A stretch of 64,000 nt of DNA from positions 3,100,001-3,164,000 of the forward strand of contig NC_060116.1 in NCBI RefSeq assembly GCF_021155765.1. The letters are read 5' to 3'. Within the stretch, counting starts at the first letter, position 1; every line of letters begins with the position of its first letter. The notes beneath the pieces were generated by a model, which saw nothing but the letters and a program-made list of their open reading frames with translations, did not search any database and was not told the origin of the DNA. The translations under genes were made by a program, and so were the position numbers. Positions 215 to 42,396 of the stretch are shown piece by piece. The DNA is from Diprion similis. Lineage: Eukaryota > Arthropoda > Insecta > Hymenoptera > Diprionidae.

Positions 215-2908
215 TTATGCAGGATTGGATGGTAAACCCATTGACCAAGCATCCAATAATTTTTGATCATGAGGACCTGCTCCTAAGCTCATCATCAGTC
301 CGGACAAATCTCCTCTGTGACCCCGGCCTCTCATAGCATGCACTACTTTGGCTATGCTAAAAAAACAAGAAATGAAGTTTCTTCGTAGATGACACTAAGT
401 GAGGCTCCATTATTTGTGATCGCCATACGCATACATACTTTGCCCATTCTTCTTGGAGAGCAACAAAATGTGCTTTCAAAACAGGTTCTCCGAGCTTTTC
501 GTTGTCAAACGACTTTTCTATTTTAACCAATAGTGTGGGTAACTTTGCAGGCAGAGTACCGGCCCACCTGACAATGTACGAGTTTTCATTTGCAATCTTA
601 TGCTCTTTTGGTATGATATCCAATCGACATATGTCGGAACTCAGCAACGGTACTGCCACGGATGTGTCGACCCCTGTGTGTCATATAATTTTAGTCTAAT
701 TTTAAAGGTGGATCTATAAATTAGTACACTCACCAATAAAATTGCACGTGTTTGGATTCATATATTCAGATGCTTGCGTGACAACTCGTCTACATGCTAC
801 TGGAACCAAGTAGCTCAGTCCATACAACAACTCTAGAACTTCTAGTTTTGAACCCCGTACTAAAACTTGAATGCCCGTCAAACTTGCATACAATACTTGT
901 CGGAAATGCTCTTTTCCAAGAATACATCTGATTTCCTTCAAAATGGTTATTGGCGATTTATAAGAAACATCTAAAAACTCTGATGCCACTTTTGTCTCCT
1001 CTAGTGTAAGTTTTGGTATAATGGGTGATTTTGCATTGACCAGGGTAAAGCCTTCATCTACTTCTGGAATATGTAAGCATTTTTCAATTGTAAATTAAAG
1101 GTATAATTGTAAAAAAATTGAAAATAATATTTGTAAATAACTGTTTTTAAAAGCTAGTTATTCCATCTTCTGGGTAAAATTTGCCCTACATATAATTCAA
1201 TAATTTTCGGTGGAGCATTTTACTTGAAAGATGAAAACACCAGGCCTAAGTGATATTATTATAAGATAAATTTGTCACAGGTTATATTAGAAGAGAGATT
1301 CAGCACAAGATTTATCCAGAAATATGGCGACAATGACCCAGAATATCTTTGTAAAAAATTAACAGTAAAAATTTAGAATGTAGGATAGGCATAATATAAT
1401 TCCTTATCTACAATAGTGACAATTTGTTAGGTGAATAGTACTATTGAATTATTTCACATACCTATGTGATGTTCCAAGTCATAGCTCAATTCGTCATCTA
1501 ACAAATTCATTGGTAATATTTCAACAAAATGTCTAGCTCCTGCACTAAGTATCCACACTAACCACATGTGTATCCTAGAAAAAATGACAATACTAATAAA
1601 CACTGACATGTGAAAAAGGATTAAATACAGAAAACATTTACCTTGCAAATACATGCTTTTCATTTGTAATATCTCCAAGTGATCTAGGCTGCTTATTGGA
1701 ATTAGCTTCGGACCCGCTACTAGCGGTTTTTAATCTAGCAGCTCTTTGGGGGCATTCGGCTTCTTCTGTGTTGTACTTTTTCTCCGAAATATCTTGAAGT
1801 TCTCTAATCACTTCTCTCAAGTTATCAACTAAGAATGGCCACATATTCAAGAGAAATTGTTTGTCGCGCATAAACACTATGAAACTGTACCACCTTCTGA
1901 ATCCTCGAGTCTGAGTGAAAAAAAATAAGATTAAATACGTTGTGTGTTATTGTAGTGTCTATGCAACTTGTCAAACAAATTTTTCATATTATACAATTAG
2001 AAGAGATGCAATTTATTCTCATGATAATCACCTGGGCATCTTTCAATGTAAATGTTTGACTCAAAACATGACCTCTATGGTCGTCACCGAAATAGCATAT
2101 GCCTTCTTTTCCTGAGTGTACCTCGCAGCTCAAGCTTCTGAAATTTACAAAAACACGTTAAAAATATGAAAAAAAAGTTTAATTCACTAAGTTCCATACG
2201 CAACTGAAGTAACTGGAATATATGACATCTGCATTCAATGGTTTGCATTTTGTACAAAGCTATCTTAAAACTTTTGTGCATAAATAAGATGCTTGAAATA
2301 AAAGACTAGAAACATAGCAAATATGGTACATGTTTTTCCACACTTTAGTGGGTGTAGGAAACTGTACTAACTACCAAGAAAATGAAAATTTCAGGTCATA
2401 AAACGAACAACAAAAAATTTTGTTGAGTTAGAAAGTTTTGGAAGTAATTCCATCCACTTTTTAAGCTCAGTTCACAAAATGATGTTTACTAACTCAATCC
2501 TTTATCACCCGTCCTCTTAATTGTTCTCAATTGAGCACGATAACTCCGAAATTATTTGAGTTACACTATGGAAAGGAAAGGAATCCAGAACGTATACCTT
2601 ATACATGCATCTTTCAATAGATTTCCTATTTCCTGAGTGAGCGGACATTGAGCAGAGAGAAATGAGGTTCTTGTTTCATGTTCGTTGCTCAAATATTTAA
2701 TATTTCCCAAACTTTTGCAGCCTTCACAGTCTTCTGATTGAGCTTTCCCTTGGGGGCTGTCAGCTTTCTTCAAAACATCCTTAGGCCCGTAGAATTTAAG
2801 CTTTTCTGTACTCTCGTTGTCGAAGCAATTGCGATAAGTTTGTGTTGTGAATACTACTTGAGGCCCGTGCATTTCGCAGAATGTACAGAGCGCAATCACT
2901 GCGTTCAT
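215..2908 (-). CDS. FLCN: Folliculin (FLCN), complete coding region in 7 exons
   Basis: Folliculin forms a complex with FNIP and acts as a GTPase-activating protein for RagC/D at the lysosome, in amino-acid signalling to mTORC1 and TFEB. Exons, 5' to 3' on the minus strand: 2908-2598, 2137-2032, 1910-1642, 1574-1462, 1063-734, 673-439, 356-215. They sum to 1506 bases (501 residues), and all joins are GT-AG and phase-consistent. The N-terminus (MNAVIALCTFCEMHGP) and the CEGCKSL motif match the folliculin start. Exon 2 carries SLSCEV and FGDDHRGHV of the longin domain. Exon 3 carries TRGFRRWYS, whose first Arg aligns with what I take to be the catalytic Arg164 of human FLCN. The C-terminal DENN part ends with LKEEW-type and KLLDAWSMGL motifs. 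It is shorter than the human protein (579 residues), mainly in the linker between longin and DENN. The ATG lies just before the conserved start, so I am sure of it. Confidence 0.95.
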
Positions 2909-4098
2909 TTTCCCCTCGGTAAAAGGATCGTAGGCAACAATCCTTCGGCACGAGATTTATATTTTTTTTTCTTTTTCTTTGGTAATTTTGACATTACCTA
3001 GAATTTAAGGTAATTTTTTAACGATGATATATATCTGCTAAGATAATATTCTAATGGTATAATTTATACGAATATGAATGTATGTACTTCTAGATTAAGT
3101 CAATATACGCTCTTCTATACATAAGTAGGTATAGAACAAACACCAAAGGAATTTGACATATTTACGACTTGGACAAATGAGAAAAGAATCTATCACAAGT
3201 TAAAAGCAAAAGCTACTTTTGTACATGAATATTCTGACGGCTAATAATTTTTTTAAAAGTGAAACCTGGTTGCCATATAGTTGATAAATACGTATTACTG
3301 TAAATAGAATACATTTGATGGTGACATAACCTAAAGATCATGTACATTTCAAAAAAGTTCGCTAACCGGCAGCGGTTAACGCGATGTAGTAAAGCTACTA
3401 ATTACTTGCCTTTTCACTAATAATTATGTGCGAGCGAATAATTATTTCGCAGTCATTTCCCGGAATACAATATAAATAACAGCCAGACAGAAGCACATGA
3501 CATTTTGAGATAAGATCGAATACTGCCTTATCAAACGAATAAATTTCTTGTCTAGTTTCGTACAGTCTATTGTTATACTGCACAATATCGTTAATGTAGA
3601 CTACTTCACAGTCGGTACAACATATGAATGAGATTTATAACGAATGCGTTGACTGAATTTTCAGTAAACGATTGTCTCGAAACGCCTGACTATAGGCAAC
3701 TAGTTTTTAGAATTGATAATTGTCAAATTTTTGAATTTACGTTGTCACATGTCCTAGAAAGACTGACCATTGGAATAAGACGCACATTATTTATAAATTC
3801 TGACTATAAATCAGAAAAGACATCTTTTATGATTAATGCGTTTCGTCAAAAGGATTAGTCATTTTTCATATACATATAGAAGTTCTTAAAATCAACTTCT
3901 TCATAAAAAATCCAAAGTATACAAAAGTTTTATTTTACATTTATCAGACATAGGTATAGAGATCAGTCGGCATATCCGTCTATAATAGTATGTACATACG
4001 TACATACGCCAATGTATATTTAAATCTAACCAGGTGAAATACGTCGTACTTCACTTCGTATGCAAAAAATATCCAATGATGATAAATTTCTTGATAAG
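2909..4098. other. Intergenic region between FLCN start and TKFC end
   Basis: About 1.2 kb of AT-rich sequence. It must hold the FLCN promoter (right after 2908) and the 3' UTR of TKFC. A poly-pyrimidine run follows the FLCN start at about 2961-2975. I see no clear TATA box. Open frames here (for example 3628-3858 +) have no recognisable similarity and I do not call them genes. Confidence 0.5.
3929..3934 (-). terminator. Poly(A) signal of TKFC (AATAAA on the minus strand)
   Basis: A perfect AATAAA reads on the minus strand about 165 bases after the TKFC stop codon, followed by a T-rich stretch. This is the nearest consensus signal downstream of the gene, so it probably sets the mRNA 3' end. 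Confidence 0.5.
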
Positions 4099-7000
4099 TC
4101 AATAGAGATGTTTATCCTCACATTGGCATGACATTTTTAATTTAACACCTTCGTATGCAGCTCTCATCCAAATTCCAACTGCATGTGCTCCTGGATCCGG
4201 ATATTCAAATCGCTTAAATTAGATGGATACACAGAATTAGAAACAGGCTGATTAAAGAAATTAAAGACAAGTTAAAATAACAATGATGAAATGCGTCCGC
4301 AAGTATATCATCCAATACAATGCACGAGCAGAGCTAAGAATGCGAAAAATGGGAAAATTTACCTTGCATTTCATCAGACTAGCTCTACCCACAGCTGCCG
4401 GCATTTTAATAGTTTCAATAGCTTTAGATTCTGCTGCTTTTACAGCATTTCCAAAGGCCCTGATAGGATGTAAGTTTAACGTCAATGCCTCCGCAAGATG
4501 ATCTTGGGCTGCAAGCAGTGGATCAAGCATTGTTCTGTCTCCAGCAGCTGCCTGACCATATTCTGCTATTGCTTTATTACCCGCTGCAAGCGCATTGAGC
4601 CACATGCAAGCATCAACTGGTTCTCTTTGGGATCTTTTTGCAAACTCCTGTAATAAATACTAACTGTCAAAATTGTTAGCATTTCTATTATAATTTGATA
4701 TTCAATTCATACGTCTTACTATTATTTATCCACTTGTTTAAGGCAACTAATATTATATATGGGCCTACCCAATCAGTTATACATTGTAGTAGTTTAAAAA
4801 CTGCATATAAAGGTAGAAAAAGCACATGCCTTAGCACCTGCATCAAAAAACAGTGAATACAGCCCGCCCATAATTCCACCCATCACTCGCTCGATGATAT
4901 AACTGATTTGCCTGAGTGTAACAAATGGTCTCGAACCGGAAATTTGTTTTTCCTGGAACAGCAGGAATATAATAAGGTACATGCATGGCAGTATAGACTG
5001 AGAGTCTGTAAATTCAAGTACTATATAAATGGAGGTACTTTGATTGCTGCTTTTACGGCACTAGTGCCCTGTGCAATAGATGTACCACAATCTCCATCTC
5101 CCGAATCTTCATCCATGATATTTAGCTGCTTGGAGCAGCTAGTTAATGCATCGCATGCAAACGTTAGTATCATAAGAAAGACTTGAGCTGTACGTTCATC
5201 GAGTACAGGACCACAAGCTTCAATTTCCGGTATATCACCTCCACAGACAACCTAATACAGTAAAATTATTTAGTGTCGCCAATAACAAATTCAATTACGT
5301 GCTTTACATGTATATATGCAAAACCCTAGATTTAGTATTGAACTCAATTTGATGGCTAAGTAGTTGTTACATATACATATATTTGTACAGTTAATACTAA
5401 CACCAAGTCTTGATATCTTAGAGCCTTGTTCGAGTGACATTACCTCCACATTAGTACGTAAGCCATTCTGTAAATACAAAAATAAAATCTCAGTTAAGTT
5501 GAACGATATAAATTATACCGAAATATATTAAAATACAACAACTATATACCCAGTTTAATACTTTGGGCCAAGCTGGAACAGCTGTCGGAGTGTCGAGATA
5601 TTTGATGAGTCTTGTATCTGATGACAGTTTCAGCACTGACAATTGGAAGCCACTGGTGTCCAAAGAAGTCATGAGGGTTCCAACGTAAATTCTTTCAACA
5701 CATAAGCCACGAGAGGTCAACTGTTGTATGACTTCCATTGTAAATACACCTAATTCTATTTGACTTGACCCTTTTTGAATGATGAAACAATAACGTGAGA
5801 ATAATAGGGGCTGAATTTTCGAGGTGGGTAAATGTGCTAGTGGACGAGCACTTGTTTAATTTTTTTTCGTTTTATATGCTCCTGTTAGAATTTTCTTACC
5901 TCCGAGATTGTTAATAATTACAGCAACCTTATTTTCAGCCGTTTTGGAATCATCAGGCTCAGTAAATTTCAAACTTGCTTCCGCTGTTACATCTGTCATA
6001 ATATCTATCAACTGACAAACAATGTCTTTAGCAGTTGTAAAGTCAACTCGTTTTGCTCCAGGTTCGCCATGGATCCCAAAGCCTGTGGAAATTCACTGTA
6101 AATTTAATTTGAATATAACTGCTGACGCAGCATTACATCGCCAAGAGTACCTTTAATAAGCTCTGATTTATTGTTTGACAAATTTTTGAACTGGACTTGA
6201 TGAAAGAGATGGCAATGATTAATTGTTCACCAAACGCACCGATCTCTATCTGTTCTGTACTTGGATTTCCAGTACATGCACAAATGCCAGCTGGTGGTGG
6301 GATCCTAGTGCAAATGCCGATGGTAGCAAGTTCGCCCGACGTTATAATTTTGTTACAAACTGCCCAAATCTCTCCTAACTTTCTGCCTTCCTCAGCCATG
6401 GCTCCTGCAATCTTGTGAATGAACAAAGTAGCAGCTAAGCCTCGACGCCCAGCTGTTTTTTCAAATGATTTTAAACAGGTATCATCTCCAATAGTGAGCA
6501 TCGAAACGACTATGCCTTCATTCTGCGCTCTTGACTTAGCAAGTCCAAAGTTGATGCGGTAGCCGGTGTAATTTTGAATGATGATCAGTACCCCTGAAAT
6601 AAAATAAATTCAAGCATTAACTCTTATACTGTCTGTTTTTCCTCCTTCCAAGCGAGAATACTTGTTTACGCTGATTTAGTATTGCAAGTCGCACTCATTT
6701 ACGGCATGGCAGAATTTACTGAAACTCGTTCCTTTAGTCTGGACTTCAAGAACAGTAAATTTTATAAAAAATAATGAAGAGAACAATATTCTTCAATGAT
6801 ATGCAATTTATGTAAATAGTTCAAGTAAAAAACTGACTATGTCTGGTTGTGTCTTCTTAGATGTTTTAGGATATCACAGTATATTCACTTTTTTAACCCT
6901 TTGTGTGCACAGTGATATGAATTTGTACCAACTGTTTGAAAACAGGTGAGTACTCCAAGGGTTAATCATCTATGTCAAATATTTCCGACAATTCCACACC

Positions 7001-7806
7001 GTTACAAAATACAGGGTTTGCCCTTGACAGTGTTTACTTTTGTTGAATAATTGGTGACCATATAAACTCAATTTTATGGATATACTTAATGCCTTTCAGA
7101 TATCGCTAACTTTGTTCCTGGTCAATATTTTCATATAAGAGATGCAATAGGAAGTTAGTGTAATTGGTGCAATGAAACTAGAAATTGTTGAATTTTTATT
7201 TGGTAATGTAATCTGTAAGTATGGAAGGGAGGCTCACCTGGTGAATGATTGGTGCCTAATTGTTGAATGACTTTTAATATCGATTTGGTGGGAGGTGCTG
7301 AAAATATATCGCCCACAACGACGCCAGTCAGCATTCCTGGTCCAACAAAACCGGCATGTGTCGGCTCATTGCCCGCTCCTCCACCAGACATTAATTTTAC
7401 CTGTTACATTATTAGGAATCCAATTGTGGTAGTCCCTTAAATAAATCACGCCTGCTGTATTCAATATTCTCTTATATGTCAGATTTTTTTTCTAACATGT
7501 TGAACGTCTGGTGACGTTTACTAACTGTAATGCTATGTGACTTATCGATTTATTGCCATTTCCAGTAGGCGCATTAGATGCGTAGCTAACCACCAATTAA
7601 AACAGTCATCAAAGTTAATTTAAGCTTACCTTCCCAGGCATTTCAGCATAGTCTCTTCGTAGAATTGCTCTGTATTCTTCGAGAACTGTAGTCCCAGGAT
7701 GTGTCAGGGCAAAACCTAGCAAGTATTCGTCTACAGCAGTTTTGGGATCGTTCCAAAGCCTCTGAGATCTCGTTATACCGATGGGACCTCTATTCTTGCA
7801 GGACAT
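4099..7806 (-). CDS. TKFC: Triokinase/FMN cyclase homologue (dihydroxyacetone kinase family), with altered active-site residues
   Basis: Family members phosphorylate dihydroxyacetone or glyceraldehyde with ATP, and can cyclise FAD to FMN plus cyclic FMN. Exons: 7806-7630, 7400-7238, 6593-6240, 6082-5900, 5749-5550, 5467-5444, 5251-5039, 4952-4830, 4647-4363, 4212-4099. The sum is 1836 bases (611 residues), in frame throughout. The DhaK domain spans about residues 20-335 and DhaL about 385-605. Kept: the covalent substrate-binding His (GFGIHGEPG, His236), the Mg-binding Asp cluster (DEDSGDGDCG, Asp414/419/421) and GDRTMLD. Changed: the GHEP motif reads GNEP (Asn70), NYTGD reads NYTGY (Tyr125), and the DhaL loop MGGSSGALY reads MGGIMGGLY. 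Exon 6 is only 24 bases. Intron 8 is best read as GC-AG. The protein may be a low-activity or repurposed paralogue; activity is not shown. Confidence 0.9.
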
Positions 7807-9702: not shown

Positions 9703-11622
9703 TTAGAAAAGTAAATCTTCGTCACCCTCATCCAGCATGTTAGCTGCATCTACGTGTTTTCCAGCTTCAATATTCGCTAATCGCTGAGCCTCGGTCTGTA
9801 AAAAATAAAAAATACATCGGTAATATTATAATCTTATGTTATACAATATCTGATCTAAGAAAATTTATGCCAGATATATATCGTACTGAAGGATCTGTAA
9901 TAGCAGGAAAGATTAGAGCTCAGTTGAAATGAAAAACATCGCTTATAGAAAATCAGCGGAACAAAAGAATTTGAAGGCCTCCAGACCTGGAGTCAAACTT
10001 CAACTAAAATCCGAGTTATGGTGACGAGTAGTAAATAACATATTGGAATAAAATTGGAATAATTTGTTGGCGTTAGCTACATCATAATTTGTGAATGTAG
10101 ACTACATTTTTAAGTTAGATATATATTACCTTAGCTTTGGCAATCTTCTTTTTATCCTGAATTTTCTTCAGCCTGTAAAACTCTTCTCTTTCCAGCTCGT
10201 CTAATTCCGAAATAATGTATGCCAGAGTGCGTTCGATTCTAGGGATAATGACATGCTCGATGGCATTAACACGACGATTTGTGATTTTGATGACTTCATC
10301 CAGAGTGACGAAACTCGTCTGCAATGAAGCTAATTCGACAAGCAGTTTCACTGCCCTCTGATAGTTCTTTTTCAATTTGGCCAACTGTTGACCTCCCCTA
10401 GCTAATCCAGCTAGCTCATATGTGTCTGTACCATCCTGGTAGGATTCGAAAACTGGAAGATTAACACCGGCGACGTTGTCCTTCTTTGAGCGAATTTTGA
10501 TCTGTGCCTTAGTCACATTCTGAAGTACAACTTGGTTGAAATCACCAGTCGCAAATTTAGCCTCTGCTAATGAAAATGCTGCTTCTTTCATGACCTCACC
10601 CATCAGAGTTTTTGTCTATACACACGAAAAAAAGTCCAGATTAATCTTGGCGTTAGACTCAATATAAATTGTATACATTATATCAGTTTTTTGTACACTC
10701 TTTGAATTTTAATTATTGATAGGTAGATTGTTGAGTGTAAATATTGCAAAAGTAAAAATTCACCTCAATGATTTTGCCCAAAATCATTCTGAATCTCATC
10801 TGTAAGGCATCAGCTTTCTTCTTGAGTAATCCATGTCCCTTCTGCGCTCCAGCCAGACGAGACTTCATCAACATCTGGGCACTGTAAGTAATGCAAAGAA
10901 ATTAGCTGTGCTCAATTAACTATGACGCCCTTGCTTTACAAATTCAACAAGAAGTTAAAATCAGGTTAAACTTATGTAGTGATGAAGTGATGAAAAGAAT
11001 CAGAATCGATTTGCGGACAAATATCAAGCTCACCGATGATTTCTTCTCCGCAATTCATCGACAATATCGAATTGCGTCCTTGGTATGAATGATAATCGAC
11101 TAAGATGCATCCTGTGAATTCTCATCAAATTCTAAACTTTGAAGTGTTAATTACTTGACGCAAATTGTGCGGGTAAAGGAATTCAAAAAATTGATCTCGA
11201 TCTTTGTTAGGAGACCATTATATTCGCAGGCAAAGAAACTATTCGAAAGAGTCGAAAAACTTTGTAAAGAATTTTATTGGTTTGGAGTTGAAAGTTCATT
11301 GACAATTCGGATTTTTTGAAAAATCGAAAATGCATAATTCTTAGTGAAACGAATATTACAATCACGAAAATACCGGAGATGTACTAGTTTGAATATTCTG
11401 AAACTATTGATATCGTTATAGCAGTTCTGTTATTTGTAGAGGGGTTACACCCACTTTTTCAGCACGGCAAATACACGACACCTAGTCATGTGAATACATT
11501 TTTAACAAGATTATGATATGCGTTGTGAGTATTTGAAAGTGTAAGCTGTTAATCGTGACGTTAGTTAATCAGAATACTCACCCCCTAGAAGGGAAAATCG
11601 GTAGCCTATCCTTTCCAGACAT
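9703..11622 (-). CDS. ATP6V1D: V-type proton ATPase subunit D (V1 central rotor)
   Basis: Subunit D is the long coiled-coil shaft of the V1 rotor, coupling ATP hydrolysis to proton pumping into lysosomes and other acidic organelles. Exons: 11622-11582, 10881-10764, 10615-10130, 9795-9703. The sum is 738 bases (245 residues), close to the 246-247 usual in animals, and all joins are GT-AG and in phase. The N-terminus reads [16 protein letters not shown] and is followed by [19 protein letters not shown], as in all known D subunits. The large third exon starts with [20 protein letters not shown]. Charged heptads at both ends form the antiparallel coiled coil. The C-terminus ends DEDLLF, as in metazoan homologues. 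The first exon is only 41 coding bases and the 701-base first intron probably holds regulatory sequence. Confidence 0.97.
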
Positions 11623-14299: not shown

Positions 14300-15566
14300 T
14301 TACAGAACTTTATCATCAAGCGAGACTTGTCCCGGTCTTAAGACCTGCCTAACATTCATATTGACGCGGGATTCAGAGATGTATGACATTATTTTATCCC
14401 AATCATGGAACATCGTCTTCGATTTGCAATCGTTCACAGACTCTTCATTTTTCCAAGGTGTAGAATCTGCTTGTAAGATTTTAGGTACACCGTGATACCT
14501 CAGGCGAGAACCTTTTGACATGACAACAACATCTCCACTTCGAAGTAACAGGGCATCTGCTGGATCTTCAAGCGACAAGCCTCCGATTAGAAATATTCCA
14601 GTCTGACCAAAACTGACAGAAAATAACGGTGCATCATAATCCATTTCTGATTTATCCGTATGCCCAGAAAGAGTTGAATTCATTCTGTAATAATTGACTA
14701 TAGCTGATTCTGCTTTGAAATGACATAGACCAGAAATTCTCGCAAGATATTCTGTAAGGTCTACCATGTCATCAGGTATTTCGCCTTTGGAGTTTTCGGA
14801 GTACACTTTTGTGTCCCAATTGTGGTGATAACCTAGAGTTGCCCATCTCAACTTTGGCAAAAGAACTTTGGCTCGCTCAACATTACTGAAAAATTCAAAC
14901 GAGTTTGATTGTGAGCTAATGAGAAAAAAGTTCTTTCTTTAATGGACTTAGATTAGTATGCAATACGTAACAGTTTCAAAATGTGAAATAGAGATCTCGG
15001 AAACTGTAGTACATATAACTTAGTCAGATAAATTAAAATATAATTAAATATTCGGAGTTGCCTTCACCCAAAAATCGACATACTCAGAGCACACATCCCA
15101 CCAATCTTCATGCTCGGATAAAACCCGGTGCAAATCAAGATTCGTTTTGTTTGGCTTCCTGGAATAATCTTTAACGCATCTTGTTATCCAATACCGATGA
15201 CCGGCGTTTGTGAAAGGATTTTCTATAAAAATGAGACCTGCAAAAAGAGAGAATGCTTTAGCGGAAAGTGTGTTGGTTTGAATTAGTTGCTAAAATTTTT
15301 ATCGATCAATTTACCCGGTTTGGCGATAATTTCGTAAATATTCCAATCCTCGGTAGACCTGAGTCCTAACGAAGGCTGCTCCTCCACAATGTCAACAGGT
15401 GAAATTTTTCTAACCTAAAAAACATCCCCATCAAAAAATTTCCAAGTTCTCATTCCGAGCAGCTGGATCTTACTTTGGATAAATCTGGCGTTTTAAGATC
15501 GATAACAGCATCAAGATCAGGGAGCGGGTCCCTACTTTTGTAATATTTAAAAGAGTCTTTGAACAT
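14300..15566 (-). CDS. ALKBH1: ALKBH1, Fe(II)/2-oxoglutarate-dependent nucleic acid dioxygenase
   Basis: ALKBH1 is an AlkB-family dioxygenase reported to act on methylated or modified tRNA and DNA in nucleus and mitochondria. Exons: 15566-15474, 15414-15315, 15237-15068, 14875-14300. The sum is 939 bases (312 residues), shorter than the human protein (389) at both ends. The N-terminus (FKDSFKYYKSR, DLDAVIDL) matches the ALKBH1 start. The catalytic core is in the last exon: KLRWATLGYHHNWD, the iron ligands His193 and Asp195 (HTDKSEMD) and His249 (RYHGVP), and the 2-oxoglutarate-binding Args in RVNMNVRQVL (291, 297). The FSVSFGQTGIFLIGG strand is typical. The acceptor of the last exon is ambiguous. 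A strong site (tttttcag) ten bases upstream breaks the frame, so I use the next AG at 14877-14876. Confidence 0.93.
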
Positions 15567-41000: not shown

Positions 41001-42396
41001 GGTCGCTATTAATTATTGAAATATATTTTATTTATTTATGTGTACACCTTACGGACTTATATACGTATACATAGTATAAACAGTTTTTGCTACCAAAAGA
41101 GGAATGTCACATCACTTTAATGTCCCTATTTCGTTTTCAGTACTGATTTTTATGACGAATGATTAATTGAACCGCAATACGAAAAAAATAAAATAATTTA
41201 AAAAAGTGGATAGTTTTATTTTTTCATATCGTGGTTCAATTAATGATTGTTCATAAAAATCAGTGTAGAAAACAAAATGTGGACATTGAGGTGATGTGAT
41301 ACTTCTCTTTCGGTAACAAGAACTTTTTATACTATACATATATATAAGTCCGTAAGCTTTACACATAATAATAAATAAAAAAATATTTCAATAATTGGTA
41401 GTGACCTCTAAATATTTTTTTTCATGCTCTGCGCTTCAACGAGATTTCTTTCTCCTGAGTTTAGCAACGAGTTTTCAGGTAAGAGGCAAAAAAAAAAATG
41501 TAAGATTAAAATGAACTTATATGTATGTATGTAGTTCTGCAGTAACCAAGAAATGTAACACATGTTATTATTTTTGTTCATTATTGTTAATCGCACTGTA
41601 TTTTCTGGTAAAAATTGCAATAATTTGACGTTGGTGCAACAATAAATTAATGTTAGGGCCTTATTTAACTAGAAAGAAAATAGTCAACCGATGAAATAGA
41701 CTTAACATTGCTATACCAGGGAATGTAGTATTGCCAACTATAATCACACTAAATAGTTGCTTATACTACATTTACTTGCAATTCCTACAACAATATTTAA
41801 ACTGTTATTGTAACGATACCAATTTTCTTAAAAAAATTTTAGTTAGTGTAACCAATGAAATTTTTCTCGCTGTATAAAGTGCTTAATTGACAGTAAAAAA
41901 TCGATTTGTTATCAGTTCTGATTATAATGACAATCTTATTTTTTGTCTGTAATAGTTAACACCGGAGGACGAAGAGCGGCGTAGAAGAAGGCGAGAGCGC
42001 AATAAAATAGCAGCGACGAAATGTCGGCTAAAAAAGCGTGAGAAAACGGTGATACTCGTCCAAGAATCGGAGGAATTAGAGACCCAAAATCACGATTTAA
42101 AATCACAGATACAGGAACTTGAGACGCAGAGGCGCCGGTTAGTGGAAATGCTGAGCGTTCACAGTCCAACGTGTCTGAAACAAGGTGGTGCTAACGAAAG
42201 TTCGTTTCAACAATTTACCGAACCCTTACCTCTGCCCAGTTACCAAGAAAATTTCGCCCAATCCACCTTGAATCAACCTCAAAACTGCGTCACGGATTAC
42301 CCCGTAAAAGTTGAAGGGTATGAAAACTCTGGGCAGGATTTTTACCGGCAAAACAGTCCTTATATACCTACGTCGGATGCCGGTTGTACGGTTTAG
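37769..42396 (+). CDS. ATF3: ATF3-type bZIP transcription factor
   Basis: This is a CREB/ATF-family stress-response transcription factor that dimerises with Jun and other bZIP proteins on CRE/AP-1 sites. Coding exons: 37769-38006, 40352-40491, 41956-42396. The sum is 819 bases (272 residues), in phase with GT-AG introns. Exon 1 gives an Ala/Pro-rich N-terminus with the TPRTPEILNSLIAMTNPF motif found in Fos/ATF3 proteins. Exon 2 gives GLKLTLQTKRR and an acidic DDEEDDEGSS tract. Exon 3 opens with LTPEDEERRRRRRERNKIAA, TKCRLKKRE (basic region, about residues 133-155) and a leucine zipper to about residue 190. A Gln/Ser/Pro-rich tail ends in DAGCTV. JDP2 and Fos are close relatives, but the layout fits insect Atf3 best. 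A CRE-bearing promoter far upstream would allow autoregulation. Confidence 0.93.
38464..38843. mobile_element. MITE with GGTAATTCCGGGTGAGATGG terminal inverted repeats, in ATF3 intron
   Basis: The first 20 bases recur as an almost exact inverse complement at the end (38824-38843). The ~380-base interior has no coding capacity and matches the older copy at 20161-20570. I cannot see a clean target-site duplication. Confidence 0.8.
39878..40156. mobile_element. TA-flanked palindromic MITE, family 1 copy 2, in ATF3 intron
   Basis: Same family as 36122-36413. It has the ends ccgtgtgtcc / aacacacag, the core cctgattgagcagctgagc, the paired tgtccctaggag / ctcctagggaca, and gcatggcgcataaggtgcgcacttt-type sequence at the right end. 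TA flanks lie at 39876-39877 and 40157-40158. The inner palindrome is nearly perfect, so an unspliced transcript through it could fold into one long hairpin. Confidence 0.85.
40574..41520. mobile_element. Large fold-back element in ATF3 intron 2, probably composite
   Basis: The outer arms 40574-40660 and 41428-41520 pair (gttcatttta, gcctctt.cctgaaaac, gaaatctcgttgaagc). The inner arms about 40988-41195 and 41212-41427 pair strongly (tatttagaggtc / gacctctaaata, cttacggactta / taagtccgtaag, ctgatttttatga / cataaaaatcag). About 330 bases between the outer and inner parts on the left have no counterpart on the right, suggesting a further insertion or deletion. Confidence 0.7.
41534..41845. repeat. 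Dispersed repeat, copy B
   Basis: Partner of 21088-21385, same orientation, with conserved blocks ataatttgacgttg.tgcaacaa, gccttatttaa, actacattt.cttgcaattcc and tttaaactgttattgtaacg. It lies between the fold-back element and ATF3 exon 3. Confidence 0.6.

Follow-up and report, generated by a model that had tools for sequence, protein, structure and literature searches.

The TKFC homologue of Diprion similis has lost conserved kinase active-site residues and may be a maintained pseudokinase

A ten-exon gene of the hymenopteran Diprion similis encodes a homologue of TKFC in which conserved residues of the kinase active site are replaced, and it appears to be the sole TKFC gene of the genome, with no canonical backup found. 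It lies in a stretch of 64,000 nucleotides of contig NC_060116.1 (positions 3,100,001 to 3,164,000 of the forward strand), which is referred to here as the window. Judged from the altered residues and the known catalytic mechanism, loss of the kinase activity is likely. With more reserve, we favour the reading that the kinase (K) domain is now a pseudokinase in a protein that is still maintained for whatever role remains.

Three jobs are reported for human TKFC in an excerpt of PMC11506722, namely triokinase, FMN cyclase and control of MDA5. Which of them explains the conservation of the human protein is difficult to say. An animal that keeps the protein without the kinase residues, and in which no canonical backup copy was found, would provide a natural experiment on which of these jobs is under selection. 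The case is also a warning against annotating dihydroxyacetone kinases on homology alone. No report of altered active sites in insect TKFC was found in a partial literature search judged on titles and the openings of abstracts.

Gene structure

A sequence-only reading of this DNA had placed the homologue at 7400-4830 of the window with a length of 611 codons. These bounds span exons 2 to 8 alone; the gene, spliced by eye with sequence anchors, runs from 7806 to 4099 on the minus strand and consists of ten exons with 618 codons and a stop. The exons are as follows (window coordinates).

7630..7806, minus strand: exon 1, start codon and residues 1-59, donor AAG/GTAAGC
7238..7400, minus strand: exon 2, K domain, GAGNEP (A68, N70) and FSAP (A94)
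6240..6593, minus strand: exon 3, K domain, QNYTGY (Q120, Y125)
5900..6082, minus strand: exon 4, K domain, GIHGEPG with His236, equivalent to the covalent substrate histidine
5550..5770, minus strand: exon 5, end of the K domain, GFQ (Q335; S in 84/84 others)
5444..5467, minus strand: exon 6, predicted microexon of 24 bases, lying between the K and L domains, in frame with AG/GT borders
5039..5251, minus strand: exon 7, start of the L domain, Mg cluster Asp421, Asp426 and Asp428 in DSGDGDCG
4830..4952, minus strand: exon 8, L domain, loop MGGIMG (I472, M473), followed by a GC-AG intron
4363..4647, minus strand: exon 9, L domain, GDRTMLD and GRAS (Arg574, equivalent to human Arg543)
4099..4212, minus strand: exon 10, PDPGA motif (aligned with the family), C-terminus and stop

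The view that the gene is open and correctly spliced holds for the full-length frame, which has no internal stop and plausible splice sites: all acceptors are AG, and all donors are GT save one GC. The chance of 617 open codons is about 1.6e-19, with the stop frequency taken from three intron stretches. The GC donor, AAG/GCATGT, follows exon 8 at 4824-4829 (minus strand); a GT a few bases upstream would break the frame, as judged by eye.

In the spliced protein Pfam identifies a Dak1 domain (300.5 bits, residues 31-359) and a Dak2 domain (125.9 bits, residues 425-601). This order of domains in one chain is that of a full TKFC-type protein. An assembly error is an unlikely source of the altered codons, because the frame is otherwise open and eight altered near-invariant codons are spread over four exons (2, 3, 5 and 8).

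Altered and conserved residues

Splicing bears out the three altered motifs that had been seen in the unannotated sequence, GNEP (residues 69-72), NYTGY (121-125) and MGGIMG (469-474). As had also been noted, the changes in the first two require one base each, in the first codon position (N70 is AAT from CAT and Y125 is TAC from GAC), and His236 (in GIHGE) and the Mg-binding aspartate cluster (DSGDGDCG) are intact. The earlier numbering of the L domain was 7 too low, the aspartates being residues 421, 426 and 428 and the altered loop residues Ile472 and Met473.

The protein was aligned with 84 others, comprising 80 bacterial sequences, E. coli DhaK, the Citrobacter enzyme 1un9, 26vk (presumably a fungal and presumably active dihydroxyacetone kinase) and human TKFC. 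The bacterial rows are the best 80 of 584 confirmed stretches ranked by similarity to the window protein, and thus lean towards it; they reduce to 62 when made non-redundant at 80%. The human row, whose letters are provisional, is the only other animal in the set, which holds no other insect, so that a change common to insects would go unseen. The search pattern I[VI][KQ]NYTG[DY] is matched by 78 of the 80 bacterial rows, so NYTG itself is ascertained. The pattern permitted Q and Y, yet K and D are found in 80/80 bacterial rows. Positions 70, 94, 335 and 473 lie outside every search pattern.

Columns 70, 120, 125 and 335 are H, K, D and S in 84/84 of the other rows, and N, Q, Y and Q in the window protein. 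Column 94 is S in 82/84 other rows and Ala here. The pocket columns correspond to H56, S80, K104 and D109 of E. coli DhaK and read Asn, Ala, Gln and Tyr; we take these four DhaK residues to be the side chains that line the pocket and act on the triose, with His56 and Asp109 presumably forming the acid-base pair. Both members of this pair are therefore replaced (N70 and Y125). In the phosphate loop of the L domain, MGGSSG in its usual form, the other rows have S or T at the first position and S at the second (column 473) in 69/69 rows with a letter, fourteen bacterial rows being gapped there; the window protein has MGGIMG.

Other functional positions are kept. The covalent substrate histidine is present as H236 (H in 84/84 other rows), as are the Mg-binding aspartates D421, D426 and D428 (each D in 69/69 rows with a letter) and the essential arginine as R574 (R in 63/63 rows with a letter). 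Excerpts of the human studies state that TKFC His221 binds the triose covalently (PMC6429413) and that Arg543 is essential for the kinase (PMC11506722).

At a threshold of 95% conservation the alignment has 83 near-invariant columns, and 72 of these are kept in the window protein, as against an overall identity to human of 37%. Human keeps 79, 26vk 73 and Citrobacter 1un9 81, a gap in the sequence piece used accounting for one of its two misses. The 11 altered columns are H70N, A86V, S94A, K120Q, D125Y, E134S, M331T, S335Q, S473M, A529P and P532A; S94A, K120Q, E134S and S335Q are among those that the sequence-only reading had not listed. Val86 and Ala532 are common to the window and human rows, and column 529 is altered in human too. 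The losses are close in number to those of 26vk (11/83 against 10/83), so the number is not extreme; it is the identity of the lost columns that is unusual. At this level 26vk is altered beside the covalent histidine (G237N).

In a leave-one-out count of strictly invariant columns, the window protein loses 5 of 52 (H70N, K120Q, D125Y, S335Q and S473M), compared with 4 of 55 for 26vk, 2 of 53 for the human row and one each for five bacterial rows; 77 of the 85 rows lose none. The losses of the other rows, for example G79T and T525S, avoid the triose-pocket, Mg, second-loop-serine and Arg543 positions. Pocket positions are lost in 4/5 cases as against 7/78 of the other near-invariant columns (Fisher p = 8e-4, in a post hoc test with a presumed pocket set). 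The NCBIfam equivalog model for glycerone kinase (TIGR02361) scores 473 bits, below its cut-off of 574.95; the model is meant for annotating prokaryotes, and the score stands without a canonical animal TKFC as control.

Copy number

The sequence-only reading had proposed looking in the same genome for a further TKFC gene that carries GHEP and NYTGD. None was found when the 269 Mb assembly was searched with profiles for Dak1 and Dak2 and with two motif patterns. The assembly searched has 269,008,206 bases in 60 contigs (the window is C12:3100001-3164000). The Dak1 profile (PF02733) gave four matches, all within the TKFC gene, and the Dak2 profile (PF02734) gave one, exon 9 of the same gene. The latter missed exons 7 and 8, which indicates a search of low sensitivity. 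The pattern GGGxG[HN]EP occurs at a single site in the genome, exon 2 of TKFC with Asn, and [KQ]NYTG[DY] likewise occurs only in exon 3, with Gln and Tyr. A tblastn search of the window with the protein recovered its own exons alone and no second TKFC.

A canonical copy would be expected to outscore the diverged window gene on the Dak1 profile. The kinds of copy that these searches could miss are those with motifs cut by introns and exons falling under the first look of the profile, and a copy absent from the assembly, whose completeness is not given. That no second copy was found makes the case stranger, since the altered gene is then apparently the only TKFC.

No relative was found when viral contigs were searched with the window protein; a search with a three-row alignment gave 3 loci, taken as bacterial. 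A tblastn search of plasmids gave 661 records, all with less than 60% identity; the genera listed are bacterial except for Halomarina, 1 of the 40 plasmid rows listed, which we take to be an archaeon.

Evolutionary rate

Against the 64 full-length bacterial rows, the window protein has a mean identity of 0.373 in the K domain and 0.313 in the L domain; the values are 0.464 and 0.376 for human, and 0.380 and 0.331 for 26vk. In trees built with the first 30 of these 64 rows the terminal branches, again for K and L, are 1.05 and 1.54 for the window protein, 0.58 and 0.67 for human and 1.16 and 1.46 for 26vk. The L tree (unrooted, as printed) joins the window and human proteins; in the K tree their joint clade has 16 tips and the two are not grouped. 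In both domains the window protein has thus changed more rapidly than human and at about the same rate as 26vk. A long branch is compatible with relaxed constraint or recent loss, and equally with a new role; because 26vk is about as fast and carries canonical motifs, rate alone proves neither decay nor new function.

Related proteins

Human TKFC resembles the window protein in its K-L fusion over the whole length, with 37% identity (212/566; human letters provisional), and the equivalents of His221, the Mg aspartates and Arg543 are kept. The two differ where the provisional human sequence has H59, S83, K109, D114 and S446-S447, positions that read N, A, Q, Y and IM in the window protein. The ATP-dependent dihydroxyacetone kinase of Citrobacter (1un8/1un9) is also a two-domain protein, matching window residues 45-602, but its catalytic motifs are canonical and it keeps 81 of the 83 near-invariant columns as against 72.

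Among solved structures, the K domain taken by itself is matched best by an E. coli DhaK chain (3pno/3pnq), in which the deposited sequence reads GSGNEP, the same change of His to Asn. This chain, presumably an engineered H56N mutant, differs in retaining the Lys and Asp of KNYTGD. Another related structure is 2iu4/2iu6, which we take to be DhaQ although the structure entry is named dihydroxyacetone kinase. DhaQ is a paralogue of DhaK, and NCBIfam labels the DhaQ family as an operon coactivator. Its residue pattern was rejected as a model for the window protein, which has an L domain and has lost the His and Asp; 2iu4 keeps both and is a chain without an L domain.

Metabolic context

Two matches to the glycerate kinase type family (PF13660) were found in the genome, at C12:9728480-9729226 and C7:599474-600211. 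The open frames that contain them are 667 and 490 amino acids long respectively, which suggests that each gene has few introns over at least part of its extent. The glycerol kinase type family (PF00370) has 11 matches in five places, with three each on C3, C10 and C14. The matches to both families suggest that bypasses are possible, with glyceraldehyde used via glycerate and dihydroxyacetone via glycerol kinase.

Some insects live without dihydroxyacetone kinase 1, which was lost from Drosophila and Anopheles according to an excerpt of a comparison made in 2007 (PMC2258195). In the honeybee, dihydroxyacetone kinase is reported in excerpts of three studies, from spermathecal fluid (PMC2718501), from sperm mRNA (PMC5238380) and from fat body (PMC3182174).

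Function and alternative explanations

With the acid-base pair gone, the protein would not phosphorylate dihydroxyacetone and glyceraldehyde at a useful rate, and triose carbon would be routed through other enzymes. The fold and the metal-nucleotide site would be maintained for the remaining role. Our guess is that the L domain would most likely act on FAD or related nucleotides, in the manner of the FMN cyclase, or else that the protein would serve for plain binding. A FAD-cyclising role is possible because the human cyclase activity requires the L domain alone, according to an excerpt of PMC11506722. The loss of both L-domain loop serines argues against it, since nucleotide use there could be disabled. 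The MDA5-like partner role that the sequence-only reading had also raised finds no support in these results. A fuller version, which we put forward tentatively and hold to be possible rather than probable, is that fructose and dihydroxyacetone metabolism has done away with the triokinase step and that the sole TKFC is kept for moonlighting, in FAD splitting or protein binding. If this is true, a moonlighting job normally hidden behind the kinase would be exposed, and the animal would offer a natural separation of the TKFC activities.

The same residues could belong to a gene that was inactivated recently and is becoming a pseudogene, the kinase being unneeded and the catalytic residues going first, before stops and frameshifts have arisen. 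The long branch in both domains, the presence of other triose and glycerate kinase families in the genome and the loss of dihydroxyacetone kinase 1 in Drosophila and Anopheles (PMC2258195, excerpt) would all agree with this. We nevertheless consider it unlikely, since 618/618 codons are open, every splice border is acceptable and 46 of 51 strictly invariant columns are kept, which is unlike random decay. The kept columns and the open ten-exon frame favour a protein that is maintained rather than dying.

The pocket may instead have been rewired in a protein that is still active, so that His236 holds some other carbonyl substrate and the acid-base work falls to groups such as Tyr125. Other enzymes are known in which a tyrosine can do such work, and the retention of His236, the Mg cluster, GDRTMLD and the Arg543 equivalent is consistent with an active enzyme. 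We find this improbable when the equivalents of His56, Ser80, Lys104 and Asp109 are all replaced, the loop has IM for SS, and none of the 84 compared rows has lost the His, Lys or Asp. It is very improbable indeed that the protein is a small-molecule sensor like DhaQ, a catalytically silent relative of DhaK that would still bind dihydroxyacetone through the histidine. A kept covalent histidine beside a missing acid-base pair is what such a sensor might have, but 2iu4 itself retains GHEP and the Asp (in NFEAD) and aligns to the K domain alone over 336 residues. DhaQ also works with a bacterial regulator. Among these explanations we prefer a K domain without kinase activity in a protein maintained for another role.

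Neighbouring genes

Pfam matches mark four other features of the window, given here with one further exon assigned by us.

717-1094, minus strand: folliculin C-terminal domain (Pfam)
2564-2956, minus strand: exon without a Pfam match, by its look presumably the folliculin N-terminus
10118-10615, minus strand: exon of V-ATPase subunit D (Pfam ATP-synt_D)
14303-14938, minus strand: exon of a 2OG-Fe(II) oxygenase (Pfam PF13532), presumably ALKBH1-like
41956-42393, plus strand: exon of a bZIP transcription factor (Pfam), presumably ATF3-like
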